From Gemmatimonadaceae bacterium (GTDB lineage: Bacteria > Gemmatimonadota > Gemmatimonadetes > Gemmatimonadales > Gemmatimonadaceae): DNA of 64,000 nucleotides. The stretch covers positions 124,001 through 188,000 of the forward strand of contig JAUSJA010000033.1 in NCBI GenBank assembly GCA_030647905.1. Reading direction: 5' to 3'. Shown here piece after piece: positions 22,631-43,105 of this stretch (position 1 is the first letter of the stretch; each line of letters starts with the position of its first letter). Both the position numbers and the translations under genes were made by a program. The notes beneath the pieces were generated by a model, which did no database searches, was not told where the DNA came from, and worked only from the letters and a program-made list of their open reading frames with translations.

Positions 22631-24084
22631 CATCTGCGCAGGTGACGCCGGCGGCGGAGCGCTCGCTGCTCCAGGACCTGGTGATGCTCACCAAGCCGAG
22701 GATCATCTCGCTGCTGCTGGTGACCACCATCGCGCCGATGTTCGTAGCGGGCAGTCCCGGCTGGCTGCTGGTGCTCATCGTGGGCATTGGCGGATACCTG
22801 ATGGCCGGCGGCGCCAACGCGGTGAACATGTACATGGACCGCGACATAGACGACAGGATGGCCCGCACGCGGCTGCGTCCCATCCCGAGCGGGCGCATGA
22901 GCGGAATCTCCGTGCTCGCCTTCGGCGTCGCGCTGGCGACTGCGGCGACGTTCCTGTTCGCGTACTTCGTCAACGTCCTCTCCGCGGCGCTGGCACTGGG
23001 CGGATTCTACTTCTATGTCTTCATCTATACGCGTTGGCTGAAGAGGACGACGCCGCAGAACATCGTCATCGGCGGGGCCGCGGGAGCGTTCCCGCCCCTC
23101 GTCGGGTGGGCGGCGATGACCGGCGGCATTGATCTCGTCGCTGTTTATCTCTTTCTGATTGTGTTCTACTGGACGCCACCGCACTTCTGGGCGCTGGCGC
23201 TGCTGAAGCAGGGGGATTACGCCAGGGCCGGCGTACCGATGGCGCCGCTCGTGTGGGGCGAGCGCGAGACGATGAACCAGATGCTGTGGTACACGCTGAT
23301 CCTCATCCCGCTGACCGTGCTGCCCTTCACCTTCGGCGCGTTCGGACTGCTGTATCTGGTTTCGGCCGTGCTGCTCGGGCTGATACTTCTCGTGGGAGTC
23401 GTGCGGATGCGTGCCGCGAGGGAATGGACTGCTCCCGCGTGGTGGGTTTACAAGTATTCCCTGCTCTATCTCGCGCTCCTCTTCGTGGCCATGGCGGCTG
23501 ACCGCAAGCTGGCCGGTCACGACGTGAGGACGCTGTCGCTCGAGGATCTTCGCGGCGCGATCGGGATGGTGCCGCAGGAGCCTGCGCTCTTCAGCGGGAC
23601 CGTGCGTGAGAACATCGCATATGCGCTGACTGATGACGGGCGCATGCCCCCCGATGAGGACATTCGGCGCGCGGCGTCGGCCGCACACGCGACCGAGTTC
23701 ATTGACCGGATGGTGGAGGGGTTCGACACGCTGGTCGGAGAGCGGGGAGTCAAGCTGTCGGGCGGACAGCGGCAGCGGCTCGCGATCGCGCGCGTTTTCC
23801 TCAAGGATCCGGCGATCGTGATTCTGGACGAGGCGACCTCGAGCCTGGACAGCGAGAGCGAGCGGCTGGTCGAACAGGCGATGCAGGAGCTGCTTCGCGG
23901 ACGCTCCACGATGATCATCGCGCACCGCCTGAGCACGGTTCTCCGCGCCGATCGTGTGGTGGTGCTGGATCGCGGGCGTGTGGTGGAGGAAGGCAGGCAC
24001 GCCGAACTGGTGGCGTCCGAGGGAGTGTATTCGCGGCTTTATCGCGGGCAGTTCCGCGATGACGAGGCGTTCCTCGCGCGCTAG
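22627..24084 (+). CDS. ctaB: Heme O synthase (CtaB/CyoE) fused in frame to a truncated ABC-exporter ATPase domain
   Basis: 485 residues. Residues 1 to about 295 are a near-complete protoheme IX farnesyltransferase: LTKPRIISLLLVTTIAPM, the prenyl-diphosphate motif NAVNMYMDRDIDDRMARTR, and YARAGVPMAPLVWGERETM, ending in the family's final helix YKYSLLYLALLF. At about residue 296 (nt 23505-23520) the sequence switches to an ABC-exporter nucleotide-binding domain that begins after its Walker A: LEDLRGAIGMVPQEPALF (Q-loop), LSGGQRQRLAIAR (about 376), VILDEATSSLD (Walker B, about 396) and IIAHRLS (H-loop). Without Walker A this ABC part cannot bind ATP normally. The start is TTG overlapping ctaA. 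The prenyltransferase should still work. The fusion is either a real deletion or an assembly chimera. Confidence 0.85.
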   Translation: MTSAQVTPAAERSLLQDLVMLTKPRIISLLLVTTIAPMFVAGSPGWLLVLIVGIGGYLMAGGANAVNMYMDRDIDDRMARTRLRPIPSGRMSGISVLAFGVALATAATFLFAYFVNVLSAALALGGFYFYVFIYTRWLKRTTPQNIVIGGAAGAFPPLVGWAAMTGGIDLVAVYLFLIVFYWTPPHFWALALLKQGDYARAGVPMAPLVWGERETMNQMLWYTLILIPLTVLPFTFGAFGLLYLVSAVLLGLILLVGVVRMRAAREWTAPAWWVYKYSLLYLALLFVAMAADRKLAGHDVRTLSLEDLRGAIGMVPQEPALFSGTVRENIAYALTDDGRMPPDEDIRRAASAAHATEFIDRMVEGFDTLVGERGVKLSGGQRQRLAIARVFLKDPAIVILDEATSSLDSESERLVEQAMQELLRGRSTMIIAHRLSTVLRADRVVVLDRGRVVEEGRHAELVASEGVYSRLYRGQFRDDEAFLAR

Positions 24085-42013: not shown

Positions 42014-42148
42014 TCATTCCACCGAGCCACCGCCGCGCCGCTGAGCCCTGACGCGCTTGCGCCTGGCAGTCAGAAGCAACGCATATCCGAGGTAGATCGC
42101 GGCCGCCACTGCGTACGCGAGACAGAAAAAGCGCGAATTGTCAGGCAA
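42014..42148 (-). CDS. ccmD: CcmD-like small heme-exporter subunit
   Basis: 44 residues from a TTG at 42148, overlapping the ccmC stop by 8 bases. The peptide begins MPDNSRFFCLAYAVAAAIY and has one membrane helix followed by a basic tail (ARRKRVRAQRR). Position (immediately after ccmC), length and single-helix-plus-basic-tail layout are those of CcmD, which stabilises the CcmABC complex and helps release CcmE-heme. Easily missed because it is short and lacks ATG. Confidence 0.75.
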   Translation of the reverse strand: MPDNSRFFCLAYAVAAAIYLGYALLLTARRKRVRAQRRGGGSVE

Positions 42149-42809
42149 CGTACGACTCCGGAGGATGCGCGTCGTCGCGCTCGACGGCGTAGCGGTAGCG
42201 CGCCCGCAGCAACGCCACGTACAGCAGCGTGAATGCGGCGAACGCCAGCAGCAGCGTCGTCAGCATCTCGCCCGGAAGTGACGGCGCGCTCAGCTTTATC
42301 AGGATCGGCCGCGGATGCAGCGTTCTGAAGAGGTAGACGCTCAGATAAATGAACGGTATGAGCAGCGCACCGAGAATTCCGAGGACCGCGCTGTAGCGGG
42401 CGCGAACTTCCCTGTCGTCGAGCGCGCCGCGAAGCACCAGACAGGCGACATAGATGAACCACAGGAACAGCGTCAGCGTGAGCCGCGCGTCCCAAATCCA
42501 GTAGGCGCCCCAGGCCGGCTTGCCCCAAAGTGGCCCGGTCGTGAGAACGACCGTCGTATAGACGACGCCCACCTCGGCCGACGCTTCGGCGATTCGGTCG
42601 AGCCGCTCCTCGCCAAGCCATAGATAGAGCGCGCTCGCGAGGGCGACGAGTCCGAACGCCATGAAGGCAACCCATGCGGCAGGGGCATGGATGTAGAGAA
42701 TCTTCTGGGCGGGGCCCTGGATCGCCTCGAGAGGCGTGAAGAAAATGGCGCGAATATACGTAACGACGACCGCCACGATCGCCGCGACGGTCAGAGGAGT
42801 CGGTTTCAT
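42141..42809 (-). CDS. ccmC: CcmC heme-handling protein for cytochrome c maturation
   Basis: 222 residues from the ATG at 42809, overlapping the upstream ccmA/B stop by 4 bases. Six membrane helices. The tryptophan-rich heme-handling motif is WGAYWIWDARLT (WGxxWxWD), and periplasmic histidines flank it in YIHAPAAWVAF and FRTLHPRP. CcmC transfers heme to CcmE in the periplasm. It is followed by ccmD and precedes the tetrapyrrole genes on the same strand, linking heme supply with cytochrome c assembly. Confidence 0.93.
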   Translation of the reverse strand: MKPTPLTVAAIVAVVVTYIRAIFFTPLEAIQGPAQKILYIHAPAAWVAFMAFGLVALASALYLWLGEERLDRIAEASAEVGVVYTTVVLTTGPLWGKPAWGAYWIWDARLTLTLFLWFIYVACLVLRGALDDREVRARYSAVLGILGALLIPFIYLSVYLFRTLHPRPILIKLSAPSLPGEMLTTLLLAFAAFTLLYVALLRARYRYAVERDDAHPPESYVA

Positions 42810-43105
42810 TCCTCGAGAGTGAATGGATAGGCCAGAGCGCACGCGACGACGAAGACAATGTCGAATGCCACCAGCAATTTAAGCCATGCGACGGCATCTC
42901 CAACCGGGCGCCCGCTCATCAGCTTCGCTGTTGCCTGCGCGGCGGGGATGACGATGGGAACGAAGAAGGGCAGCGCGAGCATCGGAAGCAGCAATTCGGC
43001 ATCGCCAGATCCGACGGAGAGCGTCACGCCATCCACGGCCCGGCGCGTCCCGAAAGACCTGGTCAGGTTCTCAGTGGCGACGACTGTGCCGGTTGCGGTT
43101 TGCAT
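42806..43105 (-). pseudogene. In-frame fusion of ccmA 5' end and ccmB 3' end (internal deletion)
   Basis: 99 residues. Residues 1 to about 31 are the start of the CcmA ATPase (ENLTRSFGTRRAVDGVTLSV), ending just before where Walker A should be. From about residue 33 the sequence is the last part of CcmB (LLLPMLALPFFVPIVIPA, then AWLKLLVAFDIVFVVACALA). About 1 kb of normal ccmA and ccmB is missing; the junction is near nt 43005-43012. Neither fragment can work as an ATPase or a permease. ccmC starts at its stop (ATGA). Either a real deletion, or two genes collapsed by assembly. Confidence 0.8.

Follow-up and report, generated by a model that had tools for sequence, protein, structure and literature searches.

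An In-Frame ccmA-ccmB Fusion as the Likely Scar of a Deletion in a Redundant, Decaying Cytochrome c Maturation System

The ccmA-ccmB Chimera and Its Locus

The window, a stretch of DNA of 64,000 nucleotides corresponding to C33:124001-188000, harbors a short open reading frame of 99 residues in which the beginning of ccmA runs in frame into the end of ccmB (Table 1). The frame reads MQTATGTVVATENLTRSFGTRRAVDGVTLSVGSGD up to the join and AELLLPMLALPFF...TLEE* beyond it. Its N-terminal part shares 46-62% identity with the N-terminus of CcmA from congeners; the C-terminal part is 67-86% identical to congener CcmB and matches positions 144-213 of 215 in the Pfam CcmB family (E = 6e-9). The remainder of CcmA, including the Walker A motif, and about the first 160 residues of CcmB are lost. 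A preliminary description had read this locus as a collapse of ccmA and ccmB into a single in-frame chimera deprived of Walker A and of most of the permease, followed by intact ccmC and ccmD; the chimera is borne out by translation, Pfam and congener alignment, the extent of the loss by alignment with congeners, and the integrity of the two downstream frames likewise holds. Upstream of the chimera, on the opposite strand, lies an acetate-CoA ligase gene; past ccmD, the locus continues with a uroporphyrinogen-III methyltransferase/synthase gene, hemC and hemB.

Table 1. Coordinates of the ccm features. Positions are those of the window unless a contig (C33, C34) is named; positions within loci L003 and L068 are given in brackets.
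Feature	Position	Strand	Evidence
ccmA'-'ccmB in-frame deletion remnant, 99 residues, type A (resident) Ccm system	42806..43105	-	Translation, Pfam, congener alignment
ccmA, first 35 codons, before Walker A	43001..43105	-	Translation; alignment with congeners
ccmB, last 64 codons and stop codon	42806..43000	-	PF03379 positions 144-213; congener alignment
Deletion junction, microhomology of at most about 4 bp	42998..43003	-	Split alignment
ccmC, type A, intact; ATG overlaps the chimera stop codon (ATGA)	42141..42809	-	
ccmD-like frame, 44 residues, TTG start, overlaps the ccmC end	42014..42148	-	Position, length, one hydrophobic stretch
Type B ccmABCDEFGH operon	C33:298478-304243 (L003 5478-11243)	L003 minus strand	Pfam and motifs
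Type B CcmB, full length, over the Pfam cut-off	C33:302847-303485		
ccmE remnant, Cys-type, CASRH for CASRY	C34:133202-133357 (L068 7202-7357)		
Type A ccmF, continuing in frame into the final ccmH codons	C34:133354-135444 (L068 7354-9444)		

Comparison with Congeners

The source genome (G000; 3.1 Mb in 37 contigs, 98.6% complete, 0.35% contaminated) was set beside 18 congeners, for a genus sample of 19 genomes; one scan of the genome collection returned no strain of the same species. The syntenic place of ccmAB was read in five congeners (G003, G006, G007, G013 and G015), all of which have intact ccmA and ccmB there, with the acetate-CoA ligase gene again upstream. Relative to these five, split alignment puts the segment missing from the source genome at about 1,096 bp (1,095-1,097 bp over all placements), and gap counts in DNA alignment give 1,096 bp against each of them. 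The comparison with sister genomes proposed in the preliminary description thus returns intact genes, about 1,096 bp longer, and the chimera is a gene remnant in that it lacks sequence still present in the intact orthologues of the syntenic locus. For the four clearest cases, the ambiguity that split alignment leaves at the junction is at most about 4 bp. CcmB of the same kind, hereafter type A, is present in 16 of the 18 other genomes of the genus, as frames of 228-323 residues apart from one of 157 residues that is ended by the end of its contig; the chimera is absent from all 18.

Further Lesions in the Type A System

The type A genes are split between the window locus and a ccmE-ccmF-ccmH locus on contig C34, where two more lesions bring the total to three places (ccmA-ccmB, ccmE and ccmF-ccmH) on two contigs. 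Only 51 residues of type A ccmE remain, an in-frame loss of 291 bp relative to the same five congeners, and Pfam finds no CcmE domain in what is left. The remnant also carries a substitution in its heme motif: type A CcmE reads C(A/G)SRY throughout the genus and the order, with one CGSRF, and the source-genome remnant reads CASRH, a histidine replacing the tyrosine of CxxxY, which is constant in 12 of the 12 congeners examined. Downstream, ccmF is itself intact and most of ccmH is gone, the deletion measuring 550-554 bp against G013 and 530 bp against G007. The contention of the preliminary description that the heme-handling arm had been kept, with damage confined to the ABC arm, is not supported for the window's own system, since its ccmE and ccmH are damaged as well.

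A Second, Canonical ccm Operon

About 136 kb from the chimera, on the same contig, lies a complete second operon, ccmABCDEFGH, designated type B. Its CcmA, CcmB, CcmC, CcmE, CcmF and CcmH all have Pfam matches over the cut-off (CcmA to ABC_tran), CcmG has a thioredoxin fold, and CcmD is a short frame recognized by its position and length only. Type B CcmE is of the His type and reads KHSNEY; CcmH carries the motif LRCPVCQ. The operon therefore has the makeup of a canonical System I, namely the full gene set with an HxxxY CcmE and an LRCxxC CcmH, and, judged from its gene content, could mature cytochromes c in place of type A. It resembles System I of E. coli in its ccmABCDEFGH set and His-type CcmE and differs from it in sharing its genome with the remnants of another Ccm system. 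The search for another ccmA and ccmB elsewhere in the genome, advised in the preliminary description, thus finds both, and the broken heme exporter arm suggested there would apply to one system rather than to the cell: because a complete type B operon is present, the pathway is unbroken at the level of the genome, and the cell is probably not crippled by the ccmA-ccmB fusion. Damage to a gene, seen in a single stretch of DNA, does not by itself imply loss of the pathway.

Relation and Distribution of the Two Ccm Systems

The CcmC of the window is 43% identical to type B CcmC, and in a CcmC tree of 47 rows the two types fall into distinct clades, type A being spread across the order and type B found in the family only. 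Congeners endowed with both systems (G002, G006, G012, G014 and G015) have two CcmE each; the source genome has one over the cut-off. Within type B, the CcmC of the source genome groups with a Gemmatimonadaceae record (L191) and not with its nearest congeners G006 and G015, from which it is split with support of 92-93/95-97; its placement inside its own fork is supported weakly. The type B operon is kept between congeners and its flanks differ (loci L003, L174-L177 and L191). A conserved operon in unshared flanks fits a separate gain of the block, which is likely for type B; it is perhaps a mobile block.

Type A recalls System I*, the variant with a Cys-type CcmE that occurs in archaea, Desulfovibrio and others (PMC3601427, PMC9084895): its CcmE likewise has C-x-x-x-Y for H-x-x-x-Y, and it comprises homologues of CcmA, CcmB, CcmC and CcmF. 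It differs in that the type A system of congeners further includes a CcmH-like protein bearing a CQCGC motif; of the bacteria with a Cys-type CcmE, about one third contain CcmH (PMC3601427). This CcmH-like protein follows ccmF (L166 and L167; G003 and G013), and CQCGC stands in it in the place of LRCxxC. In the source genome, the System I* core of CcmA, CcmB, CcmC, CcmE and CcmF is no longer complete, only ccmC and ccmF being intact. The replacement of System I by System III in the mitochondria of Archaeplastida, as outlined in PMC10879542, offers a parallel insofar as one system disappears and its function is covered by another; in contrast to that case, both systems here are of the Ccm kind, the host is a bacterium and the loss is seen half way.

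Constraint on the Remaining Type A Genes

Pairwise NG86 estimates of pN for the ccmB tail, ccmC and ccmF fall within the range of the other pairs and give no signal of relaxed selection for these three. As for private changes at otherwise constant sites, the ccmE remnant has three, against 0-1 in each other genome, the ccmB tail has none, ccmC has four (0-7 in others) and ccmF has 13, against 2-8 in others and 35 in one congener, the latter count probably reflecting sequence error. As the remnants show no clear loss of constraint, the deletions would be recent relative to the divergence of the species, or else some parts are still used.

Origin of the Chimera

The chimera most likely marks where a genuine deletion removed about 1.1 kb from a decaying, redundant cytochrome c maturation system. 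Type A, with its Cys-type CcmE and its order-wide distribution, would be the resident system, and the canonical type B, able to do the work, would have arrived before the type A losses. The resulting redundancy would have lifted constraint on type A, which would then have shed ccmA, ccmB, most of ccmE and most of ccmH through clean deletions at sites of little or no homology; type B would have taken over, and type A would presumably no longer be working. The process as such, here one kind of Ccm giving way to another, is well known.

The preliminary description had itself pointed to collapse by assembly, meaning that the organism retains intact ccmA and ccmB and that 1.1 kb was dropped by the assembler or through a chimeric read. 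All junctions were taken from the assembly, the remnants are otherwise well conserved, and the same contig has other clean deletions, among them the one behind the ctaB fusion and those in a gene of 438 residues near C33:14.2 kb, all of which would suit such an artifact. It is nevertheless unlikely. The ccmAB junction, with its ambiguity of at most about 4 bp, has no repeat of a length that could lead an assembler astray, so that a repeat-mediated collapse can be dismissed, and the sequences flanking the different junctions have no word of more than 10 bp in common. Moreover, the three lesions are concentrated in one pathway and lie on two contigs, the genome, rated 98.6% complete, has a single CcmE, and the point change at a motif residue of the ccmE remnant is not something that a dropped stretch could produce.

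Two other explanations take the deletion as real and give its products a use. The type A CcmC, CcmD and CcmF might still function, whether alongside CcmA, CcmB and CcmE of type B or in some other heme task, the deletions in ccmAB, ccmE and ccmH having been favored in frame for the sake of coupled translation; the cell would then combine System I* and System I in a naturally occurring hybrid, in which Cys-type CcmC and CcmF remain under selection. The intact and conserved frames of ccmC, ccmD and ccmF, the overlap between ccmC and the chimera's stop codon and the in-frame nature of all three joins (ccmAB, ccmE and ccmF-ccmH) speak for it, yet recent decay also leaves long intact frames, three in-frame joins would occur by chance about once in 27, and the private changes in ccmF exceed those of most congeners, those in ccmC staying among the counts of the others. 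Cys-type and His-type CcmE, furthermore, are reported not to be exchangeable through substitution of that single residue (PMC3601427, PMC9084895). A mixed system is less likely on this account, and such a hybrid has a low probability overall. That the 99-residue product is a working small membrane protein is scarcely credible: the reading frame is uninterrupted and retains the beginning of ccmA along with the final membrane segments of CcmB, but it has no Walker A, most of the permease is missing and, among the 19 genomes of the genus, it is confined to this one. Read as the scar of a deletion in a redundant system, the chimera belongs to a natural experiment on which parts of the two systems are interchangeable, set in a genus where some species have both systems whole and one is shedding parts of the Cys-type one.

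Other Deletions and Reading Frame

Other deletions were sought by gap tests on the alignable stretches of contigs C33 and C34 against few relatives, a scan that is uneven in that the ccm loci were compared with more relatives than other stretches. At window positions 23490-23530 (C33:147490-147530), ctaB is joined in frame to the C-terminal portion of an ABC exporter, the join falling beyond the Walker A; compared with G003 and G013, the source genome lacks 1,232 bp, and G015 is without the exporter. The proximity of both fusions to an ABC Walker A had been taken in the preliminary description as a likeness between them. A common mechanism has no support in the sequence: the ctaB break is downstream of the Walker A of an unrelated exporter, the ccm one upstream of a Walker A, and stretches of 200 bp at the two junctions have no exact word longer than 8 bp in common.

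Four of the five clean intragenic junctions (ccmA-ccmB, ccmE, ccmF-ccmH and ctaB) are in frame. Given so few cases, the excess over the one in three expected by chance is weak and suggestive at best. Speculatively, the in-frame join of ccmA to ccmB may keep ribosomes running to the overlapping start of ccmC, an effect that could be of consequence if ccmC is still in use. The fifth junction belongs to a gene of 438 residues in G003, the counterpart of which shows an out-of-frame deletion of 397 bp next to another of 261 bp (C33:13759-14616, L062); a process that makes only in-frame deletions was rejected on this ground.
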